Source: a virus. Taken from it: a DNA stretch of 26,664 bases. Where the stretch lies: positions 1-26,664 of the IMG/VR virus record IMGVR_UViG_3300025131_009698; one strand, given 5' to 3'. The translations under genes and the position numbers were made by a program. Positions within the stretch are counted from its first letter, which is position 1; each line of letters begins with the position of its first letter. The notes beneath the pieces are model-generated. The model saw only the letters and a list, made by a program, of their open reading frames with translations. It had not been told where the DNA came from and did not search any database. Positions 5,152-19,379 of this stretch are shown here, in pieces.

Positions 5152-5170
5152 CCTTAGTGATGGTGTAGCC

Positions 5171-5178
5171 TACTTATA
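5171..5178 (+). promoter_or_regulatory. candidate phage promoter element TACTTATA
   Basis: Lies 27 bases before the ATG at 5198 in an otherwise non-coding gap (5019-5197) and after a hairpin. Identical octamers stand 44 and 25 bases before the starts at 7958 and 17441. Confidence 0.5.
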
Positions 5179-5197
5179 AAATGAATGTGAGACTACC

Positions 5198-5848
5198 ATG
5201 AAGATAAAAGCATCGCAACTACGGCAGATTATCAAGGAAGAGCTTATGTCATCTCTTCAAGAAATAGAGGCTTACAGCGGACGACGTGATAGGGCTAAAG
5301 CAGGATCGCAGTGGGCTGGAGGCTCTATCGGAGCGCTCCTAGGGGGAGCAGGAGGAGCTGGATTCGGTGCTGTTCCAGGCTTGGCAGTCGGAGGCTTTGC
5401 AGGTGGGAAAGCATATGATTGGGCATCAAAACTACCGTGGCTGGATAAATGGCTTGGCCCAAAGCCTGAAGAGGTCATGAAAAAGCTAGAAGCCAACCCT
5501 ATTGATGAAAAAACTTTTATTCAAGCATTGGCAATAAAGACGGGATCCGGAACAGTGGATATTGCGGAATTTTTAAATGATGCTTTATCAGCAACCAAAC
5601 TATCAGAAAAAGAGTTAACAATGCTTCGATTTGATGAGGCTGACTTAAGGGATGCTGCACGGAATCCTGGCGAAGGTGCGCCTCCACTAAGCTCTGGCGA
5701 TATTAATGCGGTTGTTAACATCTTAAAAGATAAAGACATGTTAATGGCGGATACAGTAGCACGTCAGGTTAAAAAATATGCGACAGGAGAAAAGGGAGCG
5801 CTTAAGACTGTAAAGCATCTTGGCAATCCTGATGCATGGACTTCTTAA
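5198..5848 (+). CDS. glycine-zipper membrane-active protein with capsid-targeting-like N-terminus
   Basis: A 216-residue protein starting MKIKASQLRQIIKEELM, the closest relative of the tag on the 1460 gene. Residues ~38-72 form a long Gly/Ala-rich hydrophobic stretch (GGSIGALLGGAGGAGFGAVP and onward) typical of glycine-zipper segments that insert or oligomerise in membranes. The remaining ~140 residues are soluble and helical with Lys/Glu/Asp alternation and no known enzyme motif. It is flanked by the two copies of the repeated hairpin and has its own candidate promoter, so it looks like a separate transcription unit. A role in crossing or gating the host membrane after ejection is possible but unproven. 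Confidence 0.75.
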   Translation: MKIKASQLRQIIKEELMSSLQEIEAYSGRRDRAKAGSQWAGGSIGALLGGAGGAGFGAVPGLAVGGFAGGKAYDWASKLPWLDKWLGPKPEEVMKKLEANPIDEKTFIQALAIKTGSGTVDIAEFLNDALSATKLSEKELTMLRFDEADLRDAARNPGEGAPPLSSGDINAVVNILKDKDMLMADTVARQVKKYATGEKGALKTVKHLGNPDAWTS

Positions 5849-5875
5849 AAAGAAAATAACTTCGCTAGATATCTC

Positions 5876-5915
5876 CACAAAAAACCAACCGCGAAAAAAT
5901 CCCGTTGGGATTTAA
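5876..5915 (+). repeat. repeated intergenic hairpin element, copy 2
   Basis: Matches 5111-5151: CAC-AAAAAACCA...GCGAAAAAA, then AAATCCC-GTT-GGGATTT (hairpin 5897-5913). It is located 27 bases after the stop of the glycine-zipper gene, as expected of a 3'-end or processing signal. Confidence 0.6.
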
Positions 5916-6033
5916 ATCCAATCCACTGCCATCGATGGGAGGGGTCGAAAATCAAGACCTCTCAGCCGCTTCGTAATAGTTATTGGCTGTTATCTGGGGT
6001 CACACGATCTCAATAGCGGAAGGATATATAGTT

Positions 6034-6273
6034 ATGGAAATTTTGAACAAGGCCGCTGGCCTACTTAAGTCGCTCACATCACTGAGCATCTCACTGTTGG
6101 CTCTGGGGGTCGTCCTCCAGGTGCTGTTCGGAGCAACCGTTCCGTTCCTCGAGGTGGATGTGGTCGGTAGCGTGGTGGATGTCACCAAGCAACTCGGGTC
6201 CGAGGGACTCGTTGGACTGGTGGCCCTCTGGGTGCTCGTTGCAACTCTTGACAAAGATCAAAACTCAGAGTAG
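6034..6273 (+). CDS. small two-helix membrane protein
   Basis: A 79-residue protein starting MEILNKAAGLLKSLTSLSIS. GGAAGGA ten bases before the ATG at 6034 makes this the start rather than the in-frame codon at 5983. Two hydrophobic helices (about residues 13-35 and 55-73) flank a short loop with VPFLEVDVVGSVVDVTKQLG. Small proteins of this appearance occur in marine T4-like phage genomes as unnamed membrane or virion components, as far as I recall. A canonical terminator follows directly, so it ends a transcription unit. A holin is conceivable from the topology but there is no lysis gene beside it. Confidence 0.7.
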   Translation: MEILNKAAGLLKSLTSLSISLLALGVVLQVLFGATVPFLEVDVVGSVVDVTKQLGSEGLVGLVALWVLVATLDKDQNSE

Positions 6274-6298
6274 ATAGAGTTTCAGAAGCTTGAATTCC

Positions 6299-6337
6299 AA
6301 GGGGTCGCCTCGTTGAGGGGTGGCCCCTTTCTGTTTT
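6299..6337 (+). terminator. rho-independent terminator
   Basis: AAGGGG...CCCCTT outer stem with an inner CCTC-GTT-GAGG stem, followed by TTTCTGTTTT. This is the clearest intrinsic terminator in the window and closes the unit ending at 6273. Confidence 0.8.
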
Positions 6338-6371
6338 CTAGTTCCCCATATCTATTAATAGGGGACCTAAC

Positions 6372-6503
6372 ATGTCAAGTAGCCGGGGTCGAGGTGGTCT
6401 AGCCTTCGCAATTATTGTGGCACTTCTAACATTCGCCGGCGTCTCCGCCGCAATTAACTCCGCCGCCGAGTCGGTCACCTCCTCAGACAACGCCCTCCCA
6501 TAA
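6372..6503 (+). CDS. 43-residue single-helix membrane protein
   Basis: Begins MSSSRGRGGLAFAIIVALLT, ends SSDNALP. AGGGGAC eight bases upstream is a good ribosome site. A basic N-terminus followed by one hydrophobic helix (about 9-27) and a polar tail gives an N-in single-pass topology or an uncleaved signal. No family is recognised. It sits between a terminator and a 150-base gap, so it has its own small transcription unit or is read from the candidate promoter region around 6340-6360. Confidence 0.6.
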   Translation: MSSSRGRGGLAFAIIVALLTFAGVSAAINSAAESVTSSDNALP

Positions 6504-6656
6504 CGTCATCTGGTGTACTCTACCTTGCTTACCACCTTACCTATTGGTCCTAACCAACGAAATGCATCAGGGGACGTCCTGGATGACCTAAAGTAGGTCC
6601 TGGACCATCTAATTGAGATTTACGACGATACTTATTGGTGGCGGGTGACGAACTAG
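6504..6656 (+). other. non-coding gap with hairpin and candidate promoter
   Basis: No gene is visible. A GACCTA-AAG-TAGGTC hairpin lies at 6585-6599, and TACTTATT at 6629-6636 lies 28 bases before the next start, matching the promoter-like octamer seen elsewhere. Confidence 0.45.
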
Positions 6657-7241
6657 ATGAGAATTAGCCAAAAACAGCTACGTGGTATAATACGTGAGGA
6701 GCTCTCGGAGGCCGTTTTACGGGAGGGCTTTGTCGATAAACTGCAACTCGGCCTGGACGTTGTCGGAATGATTCCAGGTGTCGGTGAGGTGGCAGACGCC
6801 GCCAATGCTATTATATCGGTGGCACGAGGTAATCACCTGCAGGCGCTACTGTCTGTTATATCAATGATTCCAGCTGCCGGGGATGCTGTCGGAAAGGGTG
6901 GTAAGACTATCCTTAAGGCTCTGGAGCCTGTGATGGACATGATTACTGCTGGTGCCGAGGTTGCCGAGGTTGTTGAAAAAATCGATCCAAAAGCACTTGA
7001 GGCAATAAAACCAGCCATCGGTCTGTTCAGTAAGGTGATGATCGCCAACAATGGAACAATTAATAAGATTCTCGGCTTCCTCGAGGCAGATAATATTGCC
7101 GCCGTTGCCAGTCAGATAGGAATAAAAACAGAGATACCAAAGTCCGTGCAGTTTAAGATCAAAGAAATAATTGAAGAGGAAGGTGGTATTGACATCGACG
7201 GCATCAAGAATATAATTAAATTTATAGAGGAAATGTCGTGA
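6657..7241 (+). CDS. pre-toxin-like hydrophobic protein with capsid-targeting-like N-terminus
   Basis: A 194-residue protein starting MRISQKQLRGIIREELS (I-R-E site). Residues ~33-85 read LDVVGMIPGVGEVADAANAI, then a short polar turn and LLSVISMIPAAGDAVGKGG. This duplicated IPGVGE/IPAAGD hydrophobic pattern resembles the pre-toxin linker found before the toxic domain in polymorphic and contact-dependent toxins, which is thought to aid membrane passage (family knowledge). The C-terminal ~110 residues are helical (EVVEKIDPKALEAIKPAIG; IKEIIEEEGGIDIDGIKNII) and match no nuclease or deaminase I can recognise. Packaged and injected, it could be a membrane-interacting effector; that is inference. 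Confidence 0.75.
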   Translation: MRISQKQLRGIIREELSEAVLREGFVDKLQLGLDVVGMIPGVGEVADAANAIISVARGNHLQALLSVISMIPAAGDAVGKGGKTILKALEPVMDMITAGAEVAEVVEKIDPKALEAIKPAIGLFSKVMIANNGTINKILGFLEADNIAAVASQIGIKTEIPKSVQFKIKEIIEEEGGIDIDGIKNIIKFIEEMS

Positions 7242-7269
7242 TACCCCGACTAAAAGGAAAAATAGTAAT

Positions 7270-7650
7270 ATGAAAATTAATCGAAAACACCTTCAGCGTT
7301 TTATTCTAAATGAGGTTACCGCAATGGTAACAGAAAAGAAGGGCCCTGATGGGCTGGGTCAAAAATGCGCAAAATCAGAGGGCGGCGAGGGCTGTGTGAG
7401 GAAAAGTACTGGTGGTAAGTACGGAGCAGTGGGCACATGGTATATCCTGGATAATAAGGACGGTGGAATATTTCGAAAGGGATTTAAAAGCAAGAAGAAG
7501 GCGCTTGCAGCGCTGAGCGTTCCTGGAGTTCATGAGACAGTAGAGATTAAGGAAGAGCTGCGAAAGGCAGCCGAAAATCCCTTTGGAACCGGCATGGAGG
7601 AGCTCGACACAGACGATCCTGAGGCTGAGGAGATCATTGGACACACGTGA
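7270..7650 (+). CDS. small basic protein with capsid-targeting-like N-terminus
   Basis: A 126-residue protein starting MKINRKHLQRFILNEVT (L-N-E site); AAAGGA lies upstream. The middle has two cysteines in GQKCAKSEGGEGCVRKSTGG and a Lys-rich strand-rich section (YILDNKDGGIFRKGFKSKKK), followed by an acidic C-terminus. Its TGA stop is followed in the same frame by 80 more open codons up to 7890, so the next small frame may be either a separate gene or a readthrough extension. No known fold is identified. Confidence 0.7.
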   Translation: MKINRKHLQRFILNEVTAMVTEKKGPDGLGQKCAKSEGGEGCVRKSTGGKYGAVGTWYILDNKDGGIFRKGFKSKKKALAALSVPGVHETVEIKEELRKAAENPFGTGMEELDTDDPEAEEIIGHT

Positions 7651-7698
7651 CTGACTCACGCTCGGCGGAAGGGTTCCGCTGTTGATGAGGTTGGCAAG

Positions 7699-7890
7699 GT
7701 GATGTGGCACTCCCTGGACGAGTCCGGACACATTGCTGTCTATGATATTCGCTGGCCCAATGGGAGAATTGAGACGGATATTCCAGTCGAGCTGCTGGAG
7801 GCTGTCATGATGGGGGAGCATGAGACTGATGAGCAGCACGGCATTCATGAGCAGTCCACTCCAGTCCATATGAGGAAGTACAAGGACTAA
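7699..7890 (+). CDS. small acidic protein, possibly a readthrough extension of the preceding gene
   Basis: A 63-residue frame from GTG-ATG at 7699/7702, beginning MMWHSLDESGHIAVYDIRWP and ending QSTPVHMRKYKD. It is in the same frame as the preceding gene with no stop between 7651 and 7890. It could therefore be an independent gene started at GTG 7699 or ATG 7702 (the nearby AGG and AAGG are poorly spaced) or a C-terminal domain reached by UGA readthrough. The content (WPNGRIETDIPVELLEAVM) looks like genuine protein. Function unknown. Confidence 0.5.
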   Translation: MMWHSLDESGHIAVYDIRWPNGRIETDIPVELLEAVMMGEHETDEQHGIHEQSTPVHMRKYKD

Positions 7891-7913
7891 CTTATTTTTT
7901 GTGCCGGCGTTAA

Positions 7914-7921
7914 TACTTATA
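7914..7921 (+). promoter_or_regulatory. candidate phage promoter element TACTTATA
   Basis: Lies in the short gap after the stop at 7890 and 44 bases before the ATG at 7958, in the context GTTAATACTTATAGTGTG. Identical to the octamers at 5171 and 17416. Confidence 0.5.
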
Positions 7922-7957
7922 GTGTGACATAGCGCACGCGTGTAGGAGAGTTTTACT

Positions 7958-8419
7958 ATGAAAGTAACAGTAGGTGCCATTAGGCAGATAGTTCGTGAAG
8001 AGGCAGATAGGCTTCATGAAACCGAAGAGGCAGAGCCGGATGCTGGATCAGTAGCAGATGCTGGATCAGTAACAGATGCTGGATTGTTAAGCTGGGTAAA
8101 AGGTGAGCTGCTGGGCATGCTCGACCCTATTAAGGATCAGTGGAACGATGAACTGAAAAAAAGTATAACATTGCTTATTAAGTCATGGGAAAATCCTCAA
8201 GTTGCTAAGCAGCTTGATCGAAAGATCCAAGCTGTTGTATCCGATGAGGGTTCATCTCACACCTCAGGATACGAGGATGGGAAGGCTTCCGATGAGGGAT
8301 CCTCACAGACCTCCGGATTCAGGCCTGATGGAAGTGGTCGCGCTTCAAATGAGGCTATAGGTCGTGCTGGCCTTCGCAACCTGATTATGCAAGAGGCCTC
8401 CTCTATCGTTGGAGAATAA
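7958..8419 (+). CDS. repeat-containing protein with tag-like sequences at both ends
   Basis: A 153-residue protein starting MKVTVGAIRQIVREEAD (V-R-E site), with AGGAG nine bases before the ATG. After the tag come short tandem repeats (DAGSVADAGSVTDAG, about 28-42), a helical middle, then two copies of SDEGSS-x-TSG (about 95 and 110). The C-terminal residues AGLRNLIMQEASSIVGE again resemble the shared tag (LR-x-LI-x-x-EA), so the protein may carry tags at both ends. The repetitive acidic linkers look disordered. No enzymatic motif is seen. Confidence 0.72.
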   Translation: MKVTVGAIRQIVREEADRLHETEEAEPDAGSVADAGSVTDAGLLSWVKGELLGMLDPIKDQWNDELKKSITLLIKSWENPQVAKQLDRKIQAVVSDEGSSHTSGYEDGKASDEGSSQTSGFRPDGSGRASNEAIGRAGLRNLIMQEASSIVGE

Positions 8420-8423
8420 TATT

Positions 8424-9554
8424 ATGAAGGTTAGCCTGGAAGAACTTAAAAAAATAGTCCTCGAAGAGGCTGTTGTGATGTCCGAGCTTGATCGATCGTC
8501 GTCCGCTGCTGACTTTGATTCACCGGCTGAACTTAAGAAGCTTAGGAAGGCTGCGCTAGACAGCATCAAGGAGCTTCCAGTTGACCATCCTGACCTCGAG
8601 CGTCATGTCAATGACCTAATGATGAGGCTTGGCAATGCGTCAACAGAGGAGGAACTGGAGGGTGTTCGTAAGGCTGCCGATGACTGGCACGATCGAGCTC
8701 GACAGCTGATGGGCTGGATTCACCGCGGTGAGTATGAAGAGTCCACCGACATGACTGAGTCACAAAAGGATGGCACGCGTCGTAAGTCACTCAAGGATGT
8801 CTTGGATCACTTTAGGCCAGAGGATGTAGTGCACACAGTGCAGGACGCCTGGGCTGGTGGCGGTGAGGACGCGCTTAACTTAGTCGCTCCACTTGACCAC
8901 GTCAAGCGGCAGACCGGAGAGGATGCTGTAGGGGACCAGGAATTTATGGTTGTTGCTGACGAACCCAATGCAGGATATCCTGCACTACCACTCCAGGAGG
9001 CATTTGAGTCGCTGTCCACTATGGGCAGGTACTCGCCAGAGAATCACCTGGCCCCACACCGACCAATGTCTGCAATGAAGTCACTAGTCGATATTATGCT
9101 GGAGCAGGAGGAGCAGGAGGTAGAGGCTTCTCAAGAGGAATTTACGATCCAGACCAGTGATGATGAAATAACTTCAAACCATGACATGCAGACAGCATTT
9201 CTGGCACATGCCAATACAGTTTTTGGCAAAGAAAGCGGCCAGCAGATGCTAAGCGCATGGCTTGGTGGCCAGCAGGGTGAAGAGCTATCTACATTTGATA
9301 GTTTCATGGAAGAAATGGGCTATGCATTAAACAAGGAAGATTTCGCATCAGAATTTAATCTTGATGTGGAAACTGACGTTCGAAGTGATGTTCCTGTTAA
9401 AGTTGATGAAAAAGAAACCCCGGAATACGCCGAGGAAACGAACCTACTTCTTGGTGATACCAGCGAGGGAGAGCATCACGATAGTGATGAATCTCTTAGC
9501 GAGGGTGCCACTAATGATCGCTGGCTGGAAATGGCCGGTATTTTTAACAATTAA
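8424..9554 (+). CDS. acidic 376-residue protein with capsid-targeting-like N-terminus
   Basis: Starts MKVSLEELKKIVLEEAV at 8424, five bases after the previous stop; GGAG nine bases upstream supports this over the ATG at 8409. The first ~110 residues are helical and charged (ELKKLRKAALDSIKELP; LMMRLGNASTEEELEGVRK). The middle carries QEAFESLSTMGRYSPENH and MLEQEEQEVEASQEEF, and the C-terminal part is strongly acidic, ending RWLEMAGIFNN. Overall it is a helical, acidic protein with scaffold-like composition, but its position among tagged proteins rather than beside capsid genes leaves the role open. It is the last in the continuous run of tagged genes. Confidence 0.72.
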   Translation: MKVSLEELKKIVLEEAVVMSELDRSSSAADFDSPAELKKLRKAALDSIKELPVDHPDLERHVNDLMMRLGNASTEEELEGVRKAADDWHDRARQLMGWIHRGEYEESTDMTESQKDGTRRKSLKDVLDHFRPEDVVHTVQDAWAGGGEDALNLVAPLDHVKRQTGEDAVGDQEFMVVADEPNAGYPALPLQEAFESLSTMGRYSPENHLAPHRPMSAMKSLVDIMLEQEEQEVEASQEEFTIQTSDDEITSNHDMQTAFLAHANTVFGKESGQQMLSAWLGGQQGEELSTFDSFMEEMGYALNKEDFASEFNLDVETDVRSDVPVKVDEKETPEYAEETNLLLGDTSEGEHHDSDESLSEGATNDRWLEMAGIFNN

Positions 9555-9575
9555 TCAAAATAACGGAGTATTAAA

Positions 9576-9698
9576 ATGGACCTTAGAAATCTTTTAGATA
9601 GATTGAATCCGCTTGGCTGGAGTAGACCTGTGCAACTTGTTGCACTTGGTTCTTTGGTTGGCGCCGCAGCATTTGTCCTGCTTTCTGGCGGCTGCTAA
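9576..9698 (+). CDS. 40-residue single-helix membrane protein
   Basis: Begins MDLRNLLDRLNPLGWSRPVQ and continues into one hydrophobic helix (LVALGSLVGAAAFVLLSGGC). CGGAG eight bases before the ATG supports translation. The amphipathic first half and C-terminal helix give a C-tail-anchored topology. No family is assigned. It follows the tagged block directly and may share its transcript. Confidence 0.65.
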   Translation: MDLRNLLDRLNPLGWSRPVQLVALGSLVGAAAFVLLSGGC

Positions 9699-9724
9699 TA
9701 AGTGTAGCTACTTAATAGCAAAAA

Positions 9725-10123
9725 ATGCTAGTAATAAATAAAGATATTAATCTGACGAGGCTGGAGCAGGATCTGCTCCATGCCTTTATTACTTTTGCAT
9801 TAGACTATCTTAGCGTGCCATGTCCTCGAGCTATTATTATAGCAGCTGATAGAAAGGATGCCGGTATTCGTACCACAGCAAATTTCTCACCAGCCACACA
9901 TACTATTAAAGTTTTAGGAGCTGGAAGAGCCATGCCTGATATTTTTAGGTCATGTGCGCATGAATTAGTTCACTTTAAACAGATGTTAACTGGTGAGCTA
10001 GATAAATATCCTCATACTGATATTGGTGGGTACCTAGAGGATCAGGCGTCAAGCGGCGCCGCAGAGATGCTTAAGGCATTTTCTTATGTATTTCCTCCTG
10101 ATATAATTTATACCCCACGCTAA
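9725..10123 (+). CDS. small zinc metallopeptidase-like protein (HExxH)
   Basis: A 132-residue protein with the zincin motif HELVH at residues 79-83 inside a helix (RSCAHELVHFKQMLTGEL). The upstream part (PRAIIIAADRKDAGIRTTAN ... HTIKVLGAGRAMP) gives the edge strands usual in minimal metallopeptidase domains, and GGYLEDQASSGAAEML follows, where an acidic third ligand would be expected. Short proteins with HELVH-x-KQ are common in T4-like phages of marine bacteria (recollection). There is no signal peptide, so it would act in the cytoplasm or virion. The substrate is unknown. Confidence 0.75.
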   Translation: MLVINKDINLTRLEQDLLHAFITFALDYLSVPCPRAIIIAADRKDAGIRTTANFSPATHTIKVLGAGRAMPDIFRSCAHELVHFKQMLTGELDKYPHTDIGGYLEDQASSGAAEMLKAFSYVFPPDIIYTPR

Positions 10124-10142
10124 TAAGAGATACGGAAACATA

Positions 10143-10430
10143 ATGTTTAGAGGTTTTAATTTATTGGTTATATGCTTTTTTACGATATCTATCATGATAT
10201 CGACAATGTCCGTTGTGATGGCATATACGTCTGGGCCTGTCTCATCAAATTCTAGCATGCTGGATAGATCGTTATTTGATGGCAACATAGTAAAAGTCCC
10301 TTTTATCAATGGCAATCGATTTGAGATTGAAAATAATTCAGCAATACCATTCGATATTATTAGTGATGATAACCTAGCAAAGTGCGATGATAATTTTTCT
10401 CAAAAAATTGACCTTTTTACAATAAATTAA
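10143..10430 (+). CDS. exported small protein with signal peptide
   Basis: A 95-residue protein whose first ~28 residues (MFRGFNLLVICFFTISIMIS and onward to SVVMAYT) are a typical Sec signal with a possible cut after VMA. The mature part is polar with two acidic patches (ISDDNLAKCDDN), a single cysteine and no known domain. A CGGAAAC site precedes the ATG. Periplasmic or outer-membrane location in a Gram-negative host is the likely destination. Roles such as superinfection exclusion or envelope modification are possible but not shown. Confidence 0.65.
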   Translation: MFRGFNLLVICFFTISIMISTMSVVMAYTSGPVSSNSSMLDRSLFDGNIVKVPFINGNRFEIENNSAIPFDIISDDNLAKCDDNFSQKIDLFTIN

Positions 10431-10496
10431 TCCACGAATATCTAGCTTCTTGCGGCGACTTCAAACTAGGTTGCAGGTAATCGTATAATTATTGAT

Positions 10497-10808
10497 ATGT
10501 CATCTGTACATGATAATGCTGAAGGTTGTTTATTTTGCCTCGGTTTTCACAGAATGCCCAAGAGACCACACATTCATGTGTGGCCTGAATTTCCTAATCC
10601 AACTCCTGATTTTACGCCTGATTCAAATTATATCATGCACCGATGTGGCATTGCAATGACGGCAATGATGCAGGAGGGTGTTTATGATTTTAAAGAGGTC
10701 GAAAAAAACAGAGTATGGGAGTCAAAAAAGCATAATATCAAGGTAAAGCTTCAAGGAACTAGCGGACATGCCGATATGCGTGTTGTAGTTATATTTGAGA
10801 AGTTCTAA
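10497..10808 (+). CDS. hypothetical protein with a possible leaderless start
   Basis: A 103-residue protein beginning MSSVHDNAEGCLFCLGFHRM. CLFC near residue 11 and later His/Cys residues (HIHVW; MHRCG) could bind a metal. The C-terminal KLQGTSGHADMRVVVIFEKF looks like a beta strand pair. A TATAAT box at 10484-10489 ends only seven bases before the ATG and no ribosome site is present, so transcription may start at or near the start codon. Stop TAA overlaps the next start as TAATG, linking it to the HD-domain gene. Confidence 0.6.
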   Translation: MSSVHDNAEGCLFCLGFHRMPKRPHIHVWPEFPNPTPDFTPDSNYIMHRCGIAMTAMMQEGVYDFKEVEKNRVWESKKHNIKVKLQGTSGHADMRVVVIFEKF

Positions 10809-11407
10809 TGGATGATACAAAAATTATAAGGCGATTTATTCGAGAGTACCTCATAGAAGTATGCGGTGGTAATCTTGAAGATGTCGAGGATGTAATTGCC
10901 ACTGCAAACTTGGCACACCTAGGACAAAAAAGAAGGTCATCAGGAATGCCTGGCATTTCACATCCAGAAAAGGTGGCTAAAATAGTTAAAAGATTTTATG
11001 GTGAAAGGGATGACCTTTGCTTGGCTGCATACCTACATGATTCATTAGAGGATGCTCCCAAGCTTGGAAATGTGACACAAGGTGAATTAATAGGCCTAAT
11101 AAAGGGATCAATAAGAAACTTGGATCAAAGTGAAAAAATTCTTTCAATAATTCAGAATATGACACATGATAAAAACGAACAGTCGTATGACGAATATTTC
11201 AATTCTTTGATAAGCAAACCTGACACCCTAATTGTTAAACTCTCTGACATGTTACATAATTTACTGGATAATCCATCCCCTCAACAAGCTATTAAATACA
11301 AGAAAGCCATTGACTCTTTAAACAGAGAAGATATAGGATTTATAAGTAAGCACCACTGGGCAGCGTTGGACAAGGCACTTGCGCGGGCCCTTGAAAATGT
11401 TGCATAA
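10808..11407 (+). CDS. (p)ppGpp hydrolase-like HD protein (RelA/SpoT HD domain, MESH1-like)
   Basis: A 199-residue protein made only of the hydrolase domain of RelA/SpoT enzymes. Expected signatures are in order: AHLGQKRRSSG (36-46), His52-Pro, His77-Asp78 with Glu81-Asp82 (LHDSLEDAP), and Asp147 in KLSDMLHN. All metal and catalytic positions of SpoT-type hydrolases are therefore present, and no synthetase domain follows, as in MESH1/small alarmone hydrolases. It would remove the pyrophosphate from ppGpp and lift the stringent response. The N-terminus MDDTKIIRRFIREYLIE resembles the shared tag and ends I-R-E, so packaging in the head is possible. Another HD phosphohydrolase activity cannot be excluded. 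Confidence 0.8.
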   Translation: MDDTKIIRRFIREYLIEVCGGNLEDVEDVIATANLAHLGQKRRSSGMPGISHPEKVAKIVKRFYGERDDLCLAAYLHDSLEDAPKLGNVTQGELIGLIKGSIRNLDQSEKILSIIQNMTHDKNEQSYDEYFNSLISKPDTLIVKLSDMLHNLLDNPSPQQAIKYKKAIDSLNREDIGFISKHHWAALDKALARALENVA

Positions 11408-11462
11408 CTGTTAAATTAATTCAATAAATAAACAATTCAACTGTTCCATTTTATTTATTTTT

Positions 11463-11633
11463 ATGATAAAATTAATAAAAGACCAACGTGGACAGGGCAT
11501 GACCGAGTATGTTATCATACTGGTGGCTATTGCCATTGTCTGTATCGCAATATCAGTTCAGTTCGGTGGAAAGATTAAGAGCTTGTTTGAGACCGCCGAT
11601 ACAGAAATCGACACTGTTGACTCTAATATGTAA
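11463..11633 (+). CDS. Flp/Tad-type pilin precursor (56 residues)
   Basis: Begins MIKLIKDQRGQGMTEYVIIL and continues as one hydrophobic helix to about residue 34, then FGGKIKSLFETAD and an acidic tail. This is the layout of Flp-family type IVb prepilins: a short basic leader, Gly10, then QGMTEY with Glu at +5 and Tyr at +6 of the predicted mature pilin (the G-x-x-x-x-EY rule), helix, and GGK. The host TadV-type prepilin peptidase would cut after Gly10. No prepilin peptidase, ATPase or secretin lies in the window, so assembly would use host machinery. A TATTTATT element at 11452 lies just upstream; no ribosome site is clear. The gene is short and easily missed. Confidence 0.8.
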   Translation: MIKLIKDQRGQGMTEYVIILVAIAIVCIAISVQFGGKIKSLFETADTEIDTVDSNM

Positions 11634-11680
11634 ACAAAAGGTGTGCTAGTTCATAATTAATAAAAGGAGAACTATTGATT

Positions 11681-11887
11681 ATGTCTAATAAAATTGATTG
11701 GCGGGAACTGACTAGGAATTTTCTTTTGGGAGAATTCGATGATCCAGAGGCAACTGAAAGTAGTGTTGAACTTCTTAGGGAGGCCCAGGATCGCAAGCTT
11801 CTAATCAAGCATGAAGCGTCACGACTCCGTAATATGTTTAATAACTATGAGATTGAATCTCTCATAAGCGAAATTAAACGCTCCTAA
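11681..11887 (+). CDS. small helical hypothetical protein
   Basis: A 68-residue protein from the ATG at 11681, beginning MSNKIDWRELTRNFLLGEFD; AAGGAG is 11 bases upstream, and a TTG at 11675 would add two residues at tighter spacing. It is charged and helical throughout (VELLREAQDRKLLIKHEASR) with no membrane segment. Its stop overlaps the 3' end of the convergent serine protease gene by four bases. Function unknown. Confidence 0.6.
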   Translation: MSNKIDWRELTRNFLLGEFDDPEATESSVELLREAQDRKLLIKHEASRLRNMFNNYEIESLISEIKRS

Positions 11888-12573
11888 AAATCAGAGACAA
11901 AATTTAAGACCGCCTCTGTGGTTGGACCGATTGCGATTGATTCCATTACAGTCGTAGATGAGTGAATAATTCCGACAAGATGTCCCCTGGAATTAAAAAC
12001 AGGTGAGCCGCTTGATCCAGGAGCTGCTGGAATAGTATAAATCTGCTCATTGTCAGGTGACATTTTTCCCGAGTAGGTTCCACTAAAAGTTAGTATAAAC
12101 TTATTACCAAATATTCCATAAGGAGCCGCTAGATTGTAGACGGTATCACCTGGTTTTGGTAAAATCCTGCTTAGTCTAATGTATGGCAAGCCTGAAAAAT
12201 CACCTTCAAGCATGCACAGGTCGTTTACTATGTCTATTCCAACGACTTCAACCGATAATCTTTCTTCATTCCACGTAGACACCGTTATAAAAGTTAGCAC
12301 ATCACCCGAAAAATAATCTGAACTTGGCACGCAAACATGTGCCGCGGTAAGTATTAGGGTTCTGTATGTATTACTTTCTACAATAACACCAGATCCAAAG
12401 CCCTGCCTTTCTCTTTGCGCACCATCTTCATTTGAAATATTTAAATTATTAACTTCAACGTGTACGAATGCATCACGTTCAATAAAATTAGATGAGTCTT
12501 TTAGGTTAGTTGAACACCCTTGAGTGATGACTAAAATCAAAGCTATGCTTAGAAACTTAAAGATTGCTCTCAT
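11884..12573 (-). CDS. exported trypsin-like serine protease, likely lipoprotein
   Basis: A 229-residue protein on the reverse strand. The first 20 residues are a signal ending VITQGC, a near-lipobox with Cys20, suggesting a lipoprotein. The chymotrypsin-fold triad is complete: His79 in LTAAHV, Asp118 in VNDLCML, Ser188 in APGSSGSPVF, with the oxyanion Gly before it. No PDZ domain follows, so it is a minimal S1-type protease related to the HtrA/Glu-endopeptidase groups. It is one of only two reverse-strand genes here, and its promoter must lie in the 12574-12631 gap. Acting in the periplasm, it could cut an envelope protein, for example a receptor; the target is unknown. Confidence 0.85.
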   Translation of the reverse strand: MRAIFKFLSIALILVITQGCSTNLKDSSNFIERDAFVHVEVNNLNISNEDGAQRERQGFGSGVIVESNTYRTLILTAAHVCVPSSDYFSGDVLTFITVSTWNEERLSVEVVGIDIVNDLCMLEGDFSGLPYIRLSRILPKPGDTVYNLAAPYGIFGNKFILTFSGTYSGKMSPDNEQIYTIPAAPGSSGSPVFNSRGHLVGIIHSSTTVMESIAIGPTTEAVLNFVSDF

Positions 12574-12631
12574 ATTAATATCTATGTAAAATACATTTAT
12601 TTCTGTTATTTAACACAGACAAGGATAAGAC

Positions 12632-13243
12632 ATGATAACTGCTATTGGTGACGTAATGCGTGAATGCTATAAAAGGGGCTGGATAACTACACGAGACGGC
12701 AACTGCTCCCTGCGAAGAAAGGGAGATAACAAGATTTATATCACGCCTTCAGGTGTAAGAAAAAACATTATCTATCCGGAATCTATTGAAAAAATTAAAA
12801 TCACAAATGATGGACTTCATATTGGAAAAAATATTAATCCATCCGGTGAGCTAGAGATGCATTGGCAATTATTAAATAATGCGCCGCAAACACGCTGTAT
12901 TTTACATGTTCATCCGACTAATATAGTCGCCGCAATGTTTGCCGGTTTTGACCTACAGGCAGTCGCCTCTAATTTCCCTGAAATCTACAGGTATACTCGC
13001 GTTGGTAAAAATGTTCCCACATTACCTGCCACATCCATCGAGCTGGCCAATGCGACTTCAAAGCAGTTAAAAATAAGCGATGGAAAAGTGGAATATGATA
13101 TTGTAGGTCAGGCTAATCATGGAGCCTGCGCGGTGGGAAAAAATCCATGGGATGCATTTGAGCACATTGAACGATTAGAGCATATTTGTCAAATTATTTT
13201 ATTGTCTGGAGTAAGACCGTCTGTAAAAACTCGTTATATTTAA
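12632..13243 (+). CDS. class II aldolase/adducin-family protein
   Basis: A 203-residue protein covering the whole class II aldolase fold. NGNCSLR is replaced by DGNCSLR at 22-28, ITPSGVRK (37-44) gives the substrate-phosphate loop, Glu73 lies in PSGELEMHW, and the zinc histidines are His92 and His94 (ILHVHPTN) and His163 (ANHGACAVG). All metal ligands seem intact, so it should be an active zinc enzyme. Family members include L-fuculose-phosphate aldolase, ribulose-phosphate epimerase and methylthioribulose-phosphate dehydratase; which one cannot be decided. AAGGATAAG precedes the ATG. A phage could use it in sugar metabolism for capsule or lipopolysaccharide building blocks. Confidence 0.85.
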   Translation: MITAIGDVMRECYKRGWITTRDGNCSLRRKGDNKIYITPSGVRKNIIYPESIEKIKITNDGLHIGKNINPSGELEMHWQLLNNAPQTRCILHVHPTNIVAAMFAGFDLQAVASNFPEIYRYTRVGKNVPTLPATSIELANATSKQLKISDGKVEYDIVGQANHGACAVGKNPWDAFEHIERLEHICQIILLSGVRPSVKTRYI

Positions 13244-13258
13244 TAATGGGACACCTAC

Positions 13259-13762
13259 ATGCTATCCAATGTTGTAACACTTAAATTAGACTCATCGTAC
13301 AAGCCGATAGAGATTATTTCATGGCAGGATGCAATAAGCCTTGTTATTATGGGAAAAGCATACATTATAGAAGCATATGAAAAATTTATTAGATCTGCTA
13401 AAAAAGCGTGGCAAGTTCCTGCTGTCATAGTTTTAAAGCGATTTGTAAACTATGAGCATGTTAAATTTTCTTGTTCTAGGAAAAATATAATGATTCGGGA
13501 TGACTATAGGTGTCAATACTGCAGCGGGGTATTTGAGACGTCTAATCTCACGCTGGATCACGTAATCCCAAAATCCCGTGGCGGTATTAACTCTTGGCAT
13601 AACTTAGTGACTGCATGTCGAGAGTGCAATCAAAAAAAAGGAAACATGCTATCCTCTGAATCGGGAATGTTTCCACTTCGTACTCCAAAACCTCCTGATA
13701 AGAAGTTTTTTATAAAAATATTCAATAAAAAAATCAGTGCCGAGATTAAAAAGTACGTCTAG
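13259..13762 (+). CDS. HNH endonuclease
   Basis: A 167-residue protein with a C-terminal zinc-bound HNH domain: CQYC (85-88), LDHVIPKSRGG with Asp100-His101, Asn115 in HNLVTAC, and CREC (120-123). The ~70-residue N-terminal part (VVTLKLDSSYKPIEIISWQD ... VPAVIVLKRFV) is the extension commonly found with HNH proteins in bacteria and phages. It lacks the DNA-binding repeats of homing endonucleases and does not interrupt any gene, so a role in DNA processing, restriction of competing DNA or packaging is more likely than homing. Confidence 0.85.
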   Translation: MLSNVVTLKLDSSYKPIEIISWQDAISLVIMGKAYIIEAYEKFIRSAKKAWQVPAVIVLKRFVNYEHVKFSCSRKNIMIRDDYRCQYCSGVFETSNLTLDHVIPKSRGGINSWHNLVTACRECNQKKGNMLSSESGMFPLRTPKPPDKKFFIKIFNKKISAEIKKYV

Positions 13763-13864
13763 TTAAACAAACACACTATAGCAGTTATTTTTAATATTAT
13801 TAATACTAGAGGCTTGAATAGTATCTTCTAAGTAGAAGATTAATAACTAAAGGTGCTGTAAGTT

Positions 13865-14371
13865 ATGATATGGAGTAATATAGAAGATCTAGCTAACTAT
13901 CTAATAGAGAGTCAGTTTAGAGAAAGAGGTGGAAAAATTTACTTAACATCTGGTGGGTTTGATCCACTTCATGTTGGACATCTACGGTGTATTCAAGGCA
14001 CCGTTGACTTAGCATCGAAAGCTAAGAAGTCAATGGTTGTCATTGTAGTTAACAATGACGGCTTCTTAATAAGAAAAAAGGGCTATGCATTTATGCCAAT
14101 AGCTGAACGTATGGAAATTATTTCTGGATTAGAAGGTGTAGGTTCGGTGACAACCTGGGATGACGGTGGGCAAACAGTTAAAGGAGCAATAGAAATTCTA
14201 AAGCCAGATTTTTTTACAAAAGGAGGAGATAGGACAGATTCCTCTAATGTTCCAGAGCATGATATCTGTGAATTAATTGGCTGTGAAATTATATTCGGTG
14301 TAGGAGGGGGAAAAATTCAATCTAGTTCAACACTTGTAGCTAATATGAGATCTCAAAATAAAGGTGAGTGA
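13865..14371 (+). CDS. cytidylyltransferase-like nucleotidyltransferase (HxGH)
   Basis: A 168-residue protein with GGFDPLHVGHLRCIQ (30-44), the HxGH motif of the nucleotidyl(adenylyl/cytidylyl)transferase superfamily, followed by VVIVVNNDGFLIRKKG, ERMEIISGLEGV, KPDFFTKGGDR, and a C-terminal GGGKIQSSSTLV that corresponds to the ISTS-like nucleotide-binding segment. It most resembles the adenylyltransferase domain of RfaE/HldE or glycerol-3-phosphate cytidylyltransferases. It would activate a sugar- or polyol-phosphate as a nucleotide conjugate, in keeping with the aldolase and epimerase nearby. The 13763-13864 gap before it holds no gene. Confidence 0.8.
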   Translation: MIWSNIEDLANYLIESQFRERGGKIYLTSGGFDPLHVGHLRCIQGTVDLASKAKKSMVVIVVNNDGFLIRKKGYAFMPIAERMEIISGLEGVGSVTTWDDGGQTVKGAIEILKPDFFTKGGDRTDSSNVPEHDICELIGCEIIFGVGGGKIQSSSTLVANMRSQNKGE

Positions 14372-14404
14372 TAGTTAATATTGACATCTTTGGAGGGATC
14401 TAAA

Positions 14405-14884
14405 ATGAATGATGAATCTGATAATACAGTTCTTAATAATAGGCTAATGGCCATCGAGAATATTCTTTCATCTGCAGCAGCACTGAATGGTGGATTTGAT
14501 AAACTTATGGTAGAAATTATGCAAATTAAGTCAAATCAAGCAGAAGTAAAAGAATTAATCTCTAAGGTGGCTATAACAGTTTACGACCCCTCAGGAGGTT
14601 TAGTGGCTAAAACTAGAGACGTTGAAGCAAAAATAATTGAATTTGATAGATTTGAGGAATCAATGGAACAGGTTATTGATCGCCACAAAGAAATATCTCT
14701 CTGGGTTTCTGCAAGGTCAAAAGACTTGGAAAAGTGGGATGATAAAAAAGGAGAGCTTCTTATAGAGATCGATCGTTTAACACAATGGAAAAATAACGTT
14801 ACACGTTTACTGTGGCTAATGGGAGGTTCAACTGTCGGGCTGCTGGTTAAAAATTTCTTTTCATTGATGTCATCATCACAGTAA
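14405..14884 (+). CDS. coiled-coil protein with C-terminal membrane anchor
   Basis: A 159-residue protein starting MNDESDNTVLNNRLMAIENI; GGAGGG at the usual distance picks the ATG at 14405 over the TTG at 14381. Residues ~1-135 are heptad-rich helix (QIKSNQAEVKELISKV; EESMEQVIDRHKEISLWVSA), followed by one hydrophobic helix (LLWLMGGSTVGLLVKNFF) and a short tail. The topology is like XhlA-type phage proteins, which have a coiled coil and C-terminal anchor, though no specific match is claimed. It ends four bases before the yeaH homologue and may be co-expressed with that module. Confidence 0.65.
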   Translation: MNDESDNTVLNNRLMAIENILSSAAALNGGFDKLMVEIMQIKSNQAEVKELISKVAITVYDPSGGLVAKTRDVEAKIIEFDRFEESMEQVIDRHKEISLWVSARSKDLEKWDDKKGELLIEIDRLTQWKNNVTRLLWLMGGSTVGLLVKNFFSLMSSSQ

Positions 14885-14888
14885 TTTT

Positions 14889-16079
14889 ATGTCAATTTTT
14901 CGAGAACACAAATCAACATCTGATCGGTCAGCCACAGATAGACGTAGGCACAAGCAGAAGATCAATAAAGCTATTAAAGACGGAATCCAGCATATTGTTG
15001 CTGAAGAATCCATAATTGGGAAAGATGGAAAGAAAAAAATCCTTATTCCAGTCAAGGGCATCAAAGAATACAGGTTTATTTTTGGAGATGGCGAACACAA
15101 CAAGCAGGTTGGGTCCGCCCCCGGAAAAAACATCAGAAAGGGTCAAAAGGTCGGCCACGCTAAGAAAAAGGGTAGTGAAAATGGCCAGGGGGCCAGTAAT
15201 GAGCCAGGTGAGGAATATTATGAAGTTGAGCTTACGCTTGAAGAGCTGGCAGAGCATCTATTTGAAAACTTAGAGCTGCCAGAACTAGAGAAGAAAAAGT
15301 TTAGATTTGTAACAGAGAAGAAGCCAAAGTGGAGAGGTCATAGGACGCAAGGTCTTAGGTCCAGGCTTTCAAAAAAGCTTACATTAAAAAATAAGATAAA
15401 AAGAAAGCTTACAGCTGAAAGACTGGGAATTCATAAAAAAAATTTAGAAAATGAGCAGGAGGAGGATGAAGAGCGTTTCCCTTTTCATGATAGCGACTTA
15501 AAATACAAGCACTATAAGACAAAGCCCAAGGAAAATAGCAGTGCAGTCGTTTTTTTCATTATGGACGTGTCAGGAAGTATGTCCACAGAGAAAAAATACA
15601 TAGCTAGAAGCTTTTATTTCTTAGTCTATCAGTTTTTAAGGTACAAGTATGACAATATTGAGATTGTCTTTATATCACACACGATTAGTGCCAAAGAAGT
15701 CTCTGAGGAAGAATTTTTTTCTAGGACGCCCTCCGGTGGAACATTAATCTCTCCTGCATTAGAGCTCATGAATGATATTGTGGAAAAAAGATTTCACACT
15801 AGTATGTGGAACATCTATGGATTTCACTGTTCCGATGGTGATAATTGGCCAGAAGATCACCAAAAGTGCCTCACTGAAACTAAAAAATTAATTGAAAAGT
15901 GTCAGGTGTACTCTTTTTGTGAGATTACACCGGCAGGTGAGGCATATGGAAAAAACTACTCTGATACATACACAAACTACCAGCCACATTCTGGCAAAAA
16001 TTTTAAGCTCTTAAAGATGACATCTCCTTCCGATATCTGGCTGTCATTTAAAAAAATATTTGGAGTTACAAATGACTGA
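14889..16079 (+). CDS. yeaH: YeaH/YhbH-family (DUF444) protein with VWA-like domain
   Basis: A 396-residue protein with the layout of YeaH/YhbH: a basic N-terminal region (DRSATDRRRHKQKINKAIKD), a conserved EYRFIFGDGEH segment, a charged middle (KPKWRGHRTQGLRSRLSKKL) and a C-terminal von Willebrand A-like domain. The MIDAS motif is MDVSGSMS with Asp226, Ser228 and Ser230, and TPSGGTLISPAL supplies the later loop. In E. coli yeaH lies with yeaG (PrkA) and both are induced in stationary phase and nitrogen starvation (established). Length is slightly below the bacterial ~425. The stop overlaps the SpoVR start by eight bases. Presence of all three partners in one phage block argues for retained joint function. 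Confidence 0.9.
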   Translation: MSIFREHKSTSDRSATDRRRHKQKINKAIKDGIQHIVAEESIIGKDGKKKILIPVKGIKEYRFIFGDGEHNKQVGSAPGKNIRKGQKVGHAKKKGSENGQGASNEPGEEYYEVELTLEELAEHLFENLELPELEKKKFRFVTEKKPKWRGHRTQGLRSRLSKKLTLKNKIKRKLTAERLGIHKKNLENEQEEDEERFPFHDSDLKYKHYKTKPKENSSAVVFFIMDVSGSMSTEKKYIARSFYFLVYQFLRYKYDNIEIVFISHTISAKEVSEEEFFSRTPSGGTLISPALELMNDIVEKRFHTSMWNIYGFHCSDGDNWPEDHQKCLTETKKLIEKCQVYSFCEITPAGEAYGKNYSDTYTNYQPHSGKNFKLLKMTSPSDIWLSFKKIFGVTND

Positions 16080-17385
16080 CTGGACATTTGAAGAACTGGA
16101 AAAGTGGGATAAAAAGATCTGCAAACTAGCAGCATCCTATGACTTGGATTGGTACCCCATAGACTACGAGATGTGTGACTATTATGACATGATAGGGAAC
16201 ATGGCATATGTTGGACTCCCTACACACTATCATCACTGGAGCTTTGGGAAGAGTTTTGAGCAGACACATTTTAGGTATAATGCTGGAATGGAGGGGTTGC
16301 CCTATGAGATGATTATAAATTCGAACCCTAGCATCTCATATCTTATGCGAGAAAATGACATGGCAATGCATGTCCTGACTATGGCACACTGCATTGGTCA
16401 CTCTGACTTTTTTAAGAATAATATAAATTTTTCCCATACTGATCCGTCTAATGTGATATCCAAATTTAGATCGGCCGCATTAAGAATTAGAAAATATGTT
16501 GAGGATCCTGGCATTGGCGTCGATGGTGTGGAGCGAATATTAGATGCTGCACATAGCATTAAGTATCAGTGCCGTCGATTCCCTCACACTCCTAAAAAGA
16601 CACATAGGGAAATTAAAGAGAGTTACATCAATTTAATCAATAATGACAAAGAAAAAAAGTATGCAGATTTTGACATCGATAAATTTCCGCTAGAGCCTGA
16701 TTACGATATCCTAAATTTTATTAGGGATTACGGTCGACACCTTAGGGAATGGGAAAAAGACATCATTGGTATTGTCGTAGATGAGACTGATTATTTCATT
16801 CCTCAGGCACGAACAAAGATTATGAATGAGGGATGGGCTTCATTTTGGCACTATAAGATATTAAGTGAGGTAGGAATACCTCAGGAGTATCACCTGTCAT
16901 TTCTCAAGAGTCACAATCAGGTTATTCGACCACATATGGGCAGGATTAATCCGTATCACCTGGGATTTAAACTTTTTAAAATGATAGAGAAAGAAATGGG
17001 GCTTGAAGAGTGCTTCTTTGCCAGGGAAGTTCACCATGACGAATCATTTTTACGTGAGTACTTAAATGATGATGTCTGTAGGGATATGAATCTTTTTAGC
17101 TATTCATTAAAAAGGGATACCTACACGATAGACGAAGTTTCAGACGAGGATGGCTGGAAATTAATTAGGGACGATTTAATTAAAAATGTTGGCCTTAATA
17201 GTATTCCTAAGATATATGTAGAAGAGGTAATATCTCCTGATAATACGCTAATATTAAAACACGAGTTCGACGGCAGGGAACTTGACCTTGAGTATGCGGA
17301 GCAGGTCTGCAAGAATATTGTGGATCTTTGGGCTGATCCAGTTAAATTTTTCACTATCATAGAAGATGATCCGTGGGAGATTTAA
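16072..17385 (+). CDS. spoVR: SpoVR-family protein
   Basis: A 437-residue protein starting MTDWTFEELEKWDKKICKLA, overlapping the yeaH homologue by eight bases. It contains the family's conserved elements YEMIINSNPSISYLMRENDM, the AHCIGHSDFFKNN segment, and NEGWASFWHY (252-261), plus GRINPYHLGFKLF further on. Bacterial relatives are SpoVR of Bacillus (spore cortex) and YcgB of E. coli (stationary phase); their biochemical activity is not settled. It is a little shorter than YcgB (~510). The tight overlap and order yeaH-spoVR-prkA show a complete module, here in a different gene order from the usual prkA-first bacterial operon. Confidence 0.92.
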   Translation: MTDWTFEELEKWDKKICKLAASYDLDWYPIDYEMCDYYDMIGNMAYVGLPTHYHHWSFGKSFEQTHFRYNAGMEGLPYEMIINSNPSISYLMRENDMAMHVLTMAHCIGHSDFFKNNINFSHTDPSNVISKFRSAALRIRKYVEDPGIGVDGVERILDAAHSIKYQCRRFPHTPKKTHREIKESYINLINNDKEKKYADFDIDKFPLEPDYDILNFIRDYGRHLREWEKDIIGIVVDETDYFIPQARTKIMNEGWASFWHYKILSEVGIPQEYHLSFLKSHNQVIRPHMGRINPYHLGFKLFKMIEKEMGLEECFFAREVHHDESFLREYLNDDVCRDMNLFSYSLKRDTYTIDEVSDEDGWKLIRDDLIKNVGLNSIPKIYVEEVISPDNTLILKHEFDGRELDLEYAEQVCKNIVDLWADPVKFFTIIEDDPWEI

Positions 17386-17415
17386 AATTTTAAAAATTGC
17401 TGCCTGGTGGTAATA

Positions 17416-17423
17416 TACTTATA
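17416..17423 (+). promoter_or_regulatory. candidate phage promoter element TACTTATA
   Basis: In the 55-base gap between spoVR and prkA, 25 bases before the ATG at 17441 (context GGTAATATACTTATATTGAGG). A GAGGGAT ribosome site sits between. This would let prkA be transcribed separately from yeaH-spoVR. Confidence 0.5.
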
Positions 17424-17440
17424 TTGAGGGATGTGCACCT

Positions 17441-19372
17441 ATGTCTAACGATGATTTTCTGTCTATAATTCACGAACAGAGAAAAAAGAAGAAAAATACT
17501 AAGTTTTCAGGAAGCTTTATTGATTACCTGAACTTAATCCGCGAGGATCCTGGCGTTGTTAAGCTGGCTCATAAAAGACTTTATGATGCAATTATTTCAT
17601 ATGGGGTACACAAGATGGACCTTGCAGACCCGCGCTGCAAGAGCTTATTTGAGGGAAATTCTATCCCTATATATGACTACTATTCATCTCATTTTTTTGG
17701 GCTGGAGGATGCAATCTCAAAAATTATGAGATTTCTAAAGTCAGCCAGCTTAAAGGGGGAAGAATCACGTCAGGTACTTCTGCTTATGGGCCCCGTTGGA
17801 GCAGGTAAGTCAGCTTTAATGGAGAGGACAAAACAGGCTCTAGAAAGACAGGGGCCCATTTATCACCTAGAGGGATGTCCAATACGTGAAGAGCCCCTCC
17901 ATCTACTTCCAAGAAACTTAAGGGAAAAATTTGAGGAAATTTTAGGCATTAAAATAGAGGGTGATCTCTGTCCTGCATGCCGCTTTAGGCTAAAGGAAGA
18001 GTTCGATAATAAGTACGAAAAATTTCCCATAACTACCTCCTCATTTTCAATTAGGGGTCGTCGAGGAATTGGGGTTGTCCCGCCCATTGACGCAAACACC
18101 CAGGATACATCAATTTTAATTGGAACAGAAGATATATCAAAGCTGGACTTATACCCCGAGGACGACCCCAGAGTACTTTCCCTTAATGGTGCCTTTAATG
18201 TTGGAAATCGAGGAATTGTTGAATTTGTTGAGATTTTTAAGAATGAGACTGAGTTTCTTCACACTATCCTAACAGCCACACAGGAGAAGTCCGTACCCTC
18301 TCCTGGTAAAAATGCCATGATTTATTTTGATGGTGCAATTCTATCACACTGCAATGAGTCGGAGTGGAATCGTTTTAAGTCCGATCACACCAACGAGGCC
18401 GTGATGGATAGGATAGTCAAAATAAATGTGCCTTATTGCCTGGAATTAAAGGAAGAGTCCAAGATATACAGGAAAATTCTTGGACATTCTGATTTCGACG
18501 CACACATAGCGCCCCACTCTATAAAGGTGGCTTCCATGTTTTCTGTGATGTCTAGGCTTAAGGAGTCACAAAAGTGTGATGTTTTAACTAAGATGAAGAT
18601 TTACAATGGCGATGCAATTGTCGAAAAGGGTCGAGTAAAGAAAATTGACATTAAGGACCTACGTGATGAGGCGCGGGATGAGGGAATGAGCGGTATCTCG
18701 ACCCGCTTTATTATGAAGGCCATTGACTCGGCACTGTCTGACAGTGAGAAGGGCATTATTACACCCATTTCAGTCAGAGAGGCATTGGTCAAGCAGGTAA
18801 AGGAACAGGTTGTCTCTGAGGAGGACAGGAATAAGTACTTGGAACTTCTACAGAAAATTATTCATGAAGAGTACCTGAGCATACTTGAGAAGGAGATTAC
18901 CAAGGCTTTCGTTTCAGCCTATGACGAGCAAGCAGAATCGCTATTTAATAACTACTTAGATCATGCGGAGGCATTTGTCAACAAACAGGGCGTCAAGGAT
19001 AAAATCACCAACGAGGAGATGCAGCCGGACGAGAAGTTCATGCAGTCTATCGAGGAGCAGATAGGAATTACAGGCTCGGCAAAAGAGGGATTCCGGAATG
19101 ATGTTACCAGTTATATGTTTACCCTGTTAAGAAGGGGCAAGCAGGTCAGGTGGAATGTCTACGGACCCCTCCGCGAGGCAATTGAGAATAAGCTAATGTC
19201 ATCAGTACGAGAAATTGCCCGCATTGTTACTAAGTCTAAAACAAGGGATCGCAAGCAGCAGAAGAAGTACAGTGATATGATAGGAACGCTGGTTGATGAG
19301 TATGGATACAATGAGGACTCCGCAGAGGAGGTCCTAAAATATGCTGCCAATCATCTCTGGCGTGATAACTAG
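17441..19372 (+). CDS. prkA: PrkA-family AAA+ serine protein kinase (YeaG-like)
   Basis: A 643-residue protein of the same length as bacterial PrkA (~640). The AAA+ domain occupies about residues 60-390: Walker A MGPVGAGKS (116-124), a zinc-like CPACR, the family segment RGRRGIGVVPPIDANTQDTS, MIYFDGAILSHCNESEW, and MDRIVKINVPYCLELKEE. The C-terminal PrkA domain (about 400-643) includes GISTRFIMKAIDSALSD and AITHEEMQPDEKF-like EEMQPDEKFMQSIEEQIGI. Bacterial PrkA/YeaG is a stress-induced serine kinase, with Lon-like protease activity also reported for some members. It is the third part of the yeaH-spoVR-prkA module, with its own candidate promoter. Nothing in the sequence suggests inactivation. 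Confidence 0.95.
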   Translation: MSNDDFLSIIHEQRKKKKNTKFSGSFIDYLNLIREDPGVVKLAHKRLYDAIISYGVHKMDLADPRCKSLFEGNSIPIYDYYSSHFFGLEDAISKIMRFLKSASLKGEESRQVLLLMGPVGAGKSALMERTKQALERQGPIYHLEGCPIREEPLHLLPRNLREKFEEILGIKIEGDLCPACRFRLKEEFDNKYEKFPITTSSFSIRGRRGIGVVPPIDANTQDTSILIGTEDISKLDLYPEDDPRVLSLNGAFNVGNRGIVEFVEIFKNETEFLHTILTATQEKSVPSPGKNAMIYFDGAILSHCNESEWNRFKSDHTNEAVMDRIVKINVPYCLELKEESKIYRKILGHSDFDAHIAPHSIKVASMFSVMSRLKESQKCDVLTKMKIYNGDAIVEKGRVKKIDIKDLRDEARDEGMSGISTRFIMKAIDSALSDSEKGIITPISVREALVKQVKEQVVSEEDRNKYLELLQKIIHEEYLSILEKEITKAFVSAYDEQAESLFNNYLDHAEAFVNKQGVKDKITNEEMQPDEKFMQSIEEQIGITGSAKEGFRNDVTSYMFTLLRRGKQVRWNVYGPLREAIENKLMSSVREIARIVTKSKTRDRKQQKKYSDMIGTLVDEYGYNEDSAEEVLKYAANHLWRDN

Positions 19373-19379
19373 GTGAGCA

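Follow-up and report, generated by a model that had tools for sequence, protein, structure and literature searches.

Large marine phages of a T4-like group carry a near copy of the pilus subunit of their probable host, an indication that host pili are supplemented or modified by the phage during infection. The gene was found in a virus fragment from IMG/VR of 26,664 nucleotides (26.7 kb), hereafter the window, where it lies on the plus strand at 11463..11633, with an ATG at 11463 and a TAA at 11633. Judged by its sequence, the product of 56 amino acids is a Flp (type IVb) prepilin with the full processing and assembly signature. Our preferred reading, to which we give a probability of about 0.58, is that the phages captured a host Tad major pilin (Flp) that has been kept under selection, and that it would be made in infection and then processed and assembled by the host, giving the phage control of the pili.

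The leader, MIKLIKDQRG (11463..11492, plus strand), is predicted from the motif to be removed by prepilin peptidase. It is followed by QGMTEYVIILVAIAIVCIAISVQFGGKIKSLFETADTEIDTVDSNM, the putative mature pilin of 46 residues (11493..11630, plus strand), which starts with QGMTEY and comprises one helix and FGGK. The original prediction of an Flp-type pilin was right in position, strand and sequence, and the elements that it had listed (leader, RG/QGMTEY site, Glu+5, Tyr+6, single helix and FGGK) are all present within the 56 residues. The match to the Pfam model PF04964 (Flp_Fap; residues 5-47, E 3.8e-7, 30.2 bits) is clear but sub-threshold, 2 bits under the curated gathering score of 32.2 bits. 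Bacterial relatives with 3-5 copies per genome reach 25-30 bits against this model, and because these genuine homologues also fall under the cut-off, it appears to be strict for this branch of pilins. The AlphaFold2 model is a single helix over residues 3-55 (mean pLDDT 81) with no globular domain; a Foldseek search with it against the PDB gave no matches, as expected for one helix. An ORF of 56 codons is within the range of common gene callers. No obvious Shine-Dalgarno site precedes the gene in the window. An upstream motif, TTAACAACTTGGTAAYAAC, common to contigs L004 and L005, is absent from the window, and a promoter k-mer comparison yielded nothing usable. No other pilus gene had been noticed nearby, and none was found among the window's ORFs by the ORF list and family searches; there is no Tad machinery in the phage.

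By its gene content the contig is phage, and it falls within the T4-like marine jumbo phage group. The genes for DUF444 (YeaH-like), SpoVR and PrkA (14889..19372, plus strand) form a cassette that places the window in this family and is common to the window, L003, L004/L141 and L005/L142. This row is a bacterial stress/sporulation-associated set; it is 83-88% conserved in L003 and occurs at about 60 viral loci of the group. The PrkA search gave 61 viral loci on contigs of up to 361 kb, and the gp23-type capsid (PF07068) and S77 prohead protease (PF03420) were over cut-off in the same 11 of 19 group records. Both genes are absent from the window and its nearest relatives, which are fragments and were placed by the cassette and the PrkA tree. 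Most related jumbo phage records have no detectable pilin, which is therefore not needed by the whole phage group.

Several other features of these contigs deserve a description. At 1406-9554 the window contains at least nine consecutive or near-consecutive ORFs that share an N-terminal motif like MKITxxQLRxIIxEE and are otherwise different; the same type of motif is found on ORFs of L003, L004, L005 and L141. Given the S77 (T4 gp21-like) prohead protease of the group, the motif has the look of a capsid-targeting sequence, and the many proteins that bear it would be internal proteins packaged in the capsid. The GC content is sharply split, being 0.48-0.62 in the segment with these genes and 0.36-0.45 elsewhere (window positions 1-9000 and 9000-26664), with a similar split in L140 and L005. 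A complete tmRNA gene with the tag ANDSNYNTYALAA lies at 24029-24432 on the plus strand (ARAGORN; Rfam RF00023, 112 bits), and genes for tRNA-Met and tRNA-Asn lie at 20871-20947 and 21597-21672. A TilS-like PP-loop protein is encoded at 20955-21578 and a very diverged GroEL-like protein, with no Pfam match, at 21646-22947 (phrog_5725, E 6e-14). The adjoining ORFs at 3-383 and 446-736 resemble tandem duplicates (SRGLPRHTSMGVRADNP / LRGLPRHTRMGIWADDP).

How widely is the pilin distributed among phages? It was found in five phage contigs, the window and four from IMG/VR, representing four distinct sequences, since L002 and L003 are identical over the compared stretch and were counted once. When IMG/VR was scanned with a profile built from the pilin alignment, the same four contigs came back and none beyond them, and a scan with an ordinary Flp pilin returned none. 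Among the 50,697 phage records of INPHARED there was no match to the window pilin, to a typical host Flp pilin or to the second pilin-like protein discussed below. The gene order around the pilin is the same in the window and L003. Upstream lies a gene for an HD-domain phosphohydrolase (10808..11407, plus strand; 36% identical in L003). Downstream are a small unknown ORF (11681..11887, plus strand; 58% identical), whose ATG at 11681 is preceded by an AGGAG-like site while the ORF tool placed the start at TTG 11675, and a gene for a trypsin-like protease with a lipoprotein-like N-terminus (11884..12573, minus strand; 50% identical). At 96% identity the pilin exceeds all other genes of this stretch in conservation. 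In L005 the pilin is 91% identical to that of the window, and little else at this end is common to the two except a metallopeptidase-like gene (30%) and the protease (41%).

Judged by its substitution pattern, the phage pilin is under strong purifying selection. Between the window and L003 there are 12 synonymous changes over 31 sites and 2 non-synonymous changes over 101 (dN/dS ~0.04; Fisher p 2.7e-7), and in the other pairs pS is 0.63-0.93, near saturation, against pN of 0.035-0.063. Over all four pairs tested pS was thus 0.39-0.93 and pN 0.02-0.06, with Fisher p from 2.7e-7 to 6.6e-18. A chance ORF was rejected on the excess of pS over pN in the four phage sequences and on cellular relatives that extend over at least 50 residues. 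The RG/QGMTEY site, whose retention in related phages had been named as a check, is present in the window and all phage copies, with no random drift, and is invariant across an alignment of 19 sequences.

Contamination from bacteria, a chimeric join or a chance passenger is extremely improbable as the source of the gene. The similarity to bacterial pilins is very high and all contigs are metagenomic assemblies, but there are four distinct phage sequences, the gene has the same place relative to its neighbours in the window and L002/L003, its flanks are phage genes, its codon usage tends toward the phage and dN is much smaller than dS. We rejected contamination and chimerism in practice on the flanks, the four sequences, the codon usage and the dN/dS contrast. 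The original prediction had also named the phage nature of the DNA on both sides as a check, and this was borne out: the cassette recurs in T4-like jumbo phages and a chimeric join is not supported.

Conservation is unevenly placed along the prepilin. In the mature part 42-45 of 46 residues are identical among the four phage sequences, while the leaders agree at 9 of 10 residues between the window and L003 but at only 2-3 of 10 across lineages, where little more than the RG ahead of the cleavage site is retained. A conserved block beginning at the processing site is the pattern that would be expected of a processed protein. A pilin turned into a phage-only membrane protein (holin-like, virion or injected) and no longer acting as a pilin is very unlikely: phages commonly encode small membrane proteins with a single helix and many nearby genes bear the N-terminal motif like T4 capsid-targeting sequences, but the pilin has no such motif, its leader varies except for RG, and the whole mature protein, E+5, Y+6 and C-terminal half included, is kept at 91-98% and near host pilins. 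The holin-like version was rejected because the mature pilin has stayed near the host form over its whole length. The earlier suggestion that pilin processing is used to place another protein in the host membrane is disfavoured too, as it is the whole mature pilin that is conserved and not the signal alone.

The cellular relatives point to one bacterial family. A search of a genome collection gave 15 close relatives, mostly 74-85% identical over at least 50 residues; each of them comes from a MAG of a marine deltaproteobacterium. One marine deltaproteobacterial family has a close relative in every one of its six genomes in the collection, usually in several copies at scattered sites, and in a sample of the phylum (284 genomes) the best match falls from ~128 to 51 bits outside that family, all others being below 52 bits. 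The genomes of this family (G005-G010) have up to five near-identical dispersed copies each, which is unusual for a major pilin. One copy (L011) lies directly upstream of genes for TadE, a Tad/TadG-like protein, a second TadE, RcpC, secretin and a T2SSE ATPase, and is the pilin of a Tad locus. When 17 kb of the phage (9600-26664) were compared with the host genomes, the strongest DNA match was again the pilin; the other matches were only tRNA/tmRNA-sized stretches and fragments of the SpoVR/PrkA and PhoH regions, and no spacer-like matches were seen for this segment. The host assignment, based on the pilin and its DNA similarity, is probable.

In both the protein and the DNA tree the phage copies group as a single clade (support 0.95 and 0.92), and the host sequence nearest to it is a copy from UBA6601 (L008). 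Two positions set all phage copies apart: mature +15 is I and +21 is S, against V and A in almost every host copy; both replacements are conservative and their effect may be nil. Codon usage of the pilin has shifted toward that of the phage, with GC3 of 0.34-0.46 in the window and L003, and 0.34-0.48 with L004 included, against 0.80-0.96 in the host copies measured. The L005 pilin, with GC3 of 0.77, sits in a GC-rich segment of its genome. The PrkA tree splits the phages with this pilin over two separate places (the L141 row is long and its position unsure), so a single capture followed by spread among phages would fit best.

According to our preferred reading, then, the phage group would have captured a Flp major pilin gene once from this marine deltaproteobacterial family, and the gene would later have spread within the group. 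During infection the phage would make the prepilin, the host prepilin peptidase would cut it between G10 and Q11, and the host Tad platform would build the mature helix of 46 residues into the host's pili, either alongside the host pilin or instead of it. The function would depend on the inferred host because the phage has no Tad machinery. The likely gain would be control of the infected cell's pili: the supply of subunits might be kept up while host expression fails, and/or a slightly altered exposed face of the pilus might change the adsorption of competing pilus-dependent phages. The interpretation first offered has stood in part: the Flp pilin gene in a phage, with its full signature and its conservation, is supported, and the blocking, decorating or poisoning of host pili would be candidate effects. 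Poisoning is disfavoured, because nothing needed for assembly has been lost: all residues known to matter for it are kept, and the differences from host pilins are only conservative. Superinfection exclusion or altered adhesion, both named there, may be the benefit.

The solved Tad pilus of Caulobacter allows a closer look at these positions. Residues equivalent to Glu+5 and Tyr+6 form a hydrogen-bond core there that is required for assembly, the contacts of phage PhiCb5 are residues equivalent to +15, +16, +18, +19, +29, +34 and +37, and PhiCb5 does not adsorb to a strain with four differences in its pilin, two of which lie at contacts (PMC11067988). The window pilin aligns with the Caulobacter PilA structure without gaps over mature residues 5-41, at a weak profile match (E 0.12). 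On this alignment one of the contact positions, +15, holds the phage-specific I, and +29, +34 and +37 are variable within the pilin family. This pattern would be consistent with receptor remodelling, but exposed positions are variable in any case and the replacements are conservative.

Superinfection exclusion would involve the same molecule as our preferred reading, with exclusion as the selected benefit: the phage pilin would be incorporated or would outcompete the host pilin, and the pili would be lost as a receptor for the phage itself or its rivals. We consider this rather unlikely. Few changes in a pilin abolish PhiCb5 adsorption (N43R and T51A are among the four differences; PMC11067988), the fixed change at +15 aligns with PilA Val29, part of the PhiCb5 contact, and the variable +37 with Thr51, and other phages shut down type IV pili against rivals (PfsE, PMC8764522). 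However, both fixed changes are conservative, the profile match to PilA is weak although its register is safe near E5-Y6, variability in the C-terminal half is expected of any exposed region, and known phage exclusion proteins usually inhibit pili and do not supply them.

A counterfeit surface-contact signal is improbable. Free pilin in the inner membrane would report the state of the pili, and the phage copy would push the host to an attached or replicating state that favours the phage; a host-like sequence would suit such a role. Pilin pools in Caulobacter are reported to feed surface sensing and cell-cycle control. Mechanosensing and cell-cycle regulation are named in the abstract of PMC11067988. 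However, the inferred hosts have no known signalling partner, and nothing within the window points to this role.

A second pilin-like protein was met in related jumbo phages. Two further records of the group with weak Flp matches encode a different protein of 66 residues (MIKELLKDEEGQSTVEYMLLISVIVIAIVAAAYVFIEPF...). This protein (EGQSTVEYMLLISVIVIA...) is present in 17 viral contigs at 84-100% identity, among them a 132-kb record with gp23. Of 71 genomes from the same class of bacteria, 21 encode relatives of up to 80% identity, and none of these genomes belongs to the six-genome family that carries the first pilin. The family matches are weak (PF16982, E 0.003; PF04964, E 0.04) and no Tad genes lie beside its relatives in the bacterial loci examined, so it is a putative pilin, by signature only. 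Its gene (L120, L121, L122-L138) adjoins tail-fibre-like genes or a gene for a secreted protein. The latter, small and beginning EIDFEELEIEGVLQKPQSALVLERKKASFNPLIKLRT..., is encoded directly upstream of or near the second pilin (L125:7744-8001, L135:7720-7983, L132:7744-8001 and others); it has relatives in 65 of the 71 genomes of the class, where they adjoin a gene for an FHA-like protein. Two phage lineages whose pilins match different bacterial groups are beyond a single accident. Capture of host pilins may even be a recurrent strategy of T4-like marine jumbo phages, in which at least two lineages, each with a strongly conserved pilin matching a different set of bacteria within one class, rebuild the pili of the infected cell, or the pilus signal, from within. 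We put this forward tentatively, with the odds somewhat against it.

Binding of pili by phages is known, as is their shutdown, and a phage that supplies a pilin like that of its host would be dealing with a receptor in another way. Through the pilin, marine jumbo phages that had no assigned host can be connected to a probable host family. The case also allows receptor remodelling to be tested in Tad pili, for which the phage interface has been solved in Caulobacter. The findings suggest that a systematic search for short pilin genes in phage genomes is worthwhile. We found no report of a phage-encoded pilin in the open-access papers searched. The protein itself is an ordinary Flp pilin, and what is new is its presence and conservation in jumbo phages.

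With the Flp/Fap (type IVb/IVc, Tad) major pilins of PF04964 the phage protein shares the RG end of the leader, the QGMTEY start, Glu+5, Tyr+6 and a mature helix of ~46 residues, and among them it is nearest to the major-pilin genes of the deltaproteobacterial family, one of which belongs to a Tad locus. In contrast to these, the phage gene is without any assembly gene in its genome, scores just under the family cut-off and is marked off by I at +15 and S at +21. Caulobacter crescentus PilA, known from solved Tad pili (8u2b, 8ucr, 8u1k), has the same E-Y pair, and its pilus is a phage receptor (PMC11067988). However, PilA matches the phage pilin weakly and its gene is chromosomal. Tip and Aqs1 of Pseudomonas phages block type IV pili. 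The possible goal of a phage-encoded action on host pili is likewise found in PfsE of Pf phage, which is not a pilin (PMC8764522). These three proteins differ from the phage pilin in that their targets are PilC or PilB, they are not pilins themselves, and the pili concerned are type IVa; a phage protein that is a pilin would act by another mechanism. Genes such as cyanophage psbA, a host gene carried by phages as an auxiliary gene, are also supplied by the phage, highly similar to those of the host and under purifying selection, but they encode a metabolic enzyme, whereas the gene described here encodes the subunit of a surface filament.
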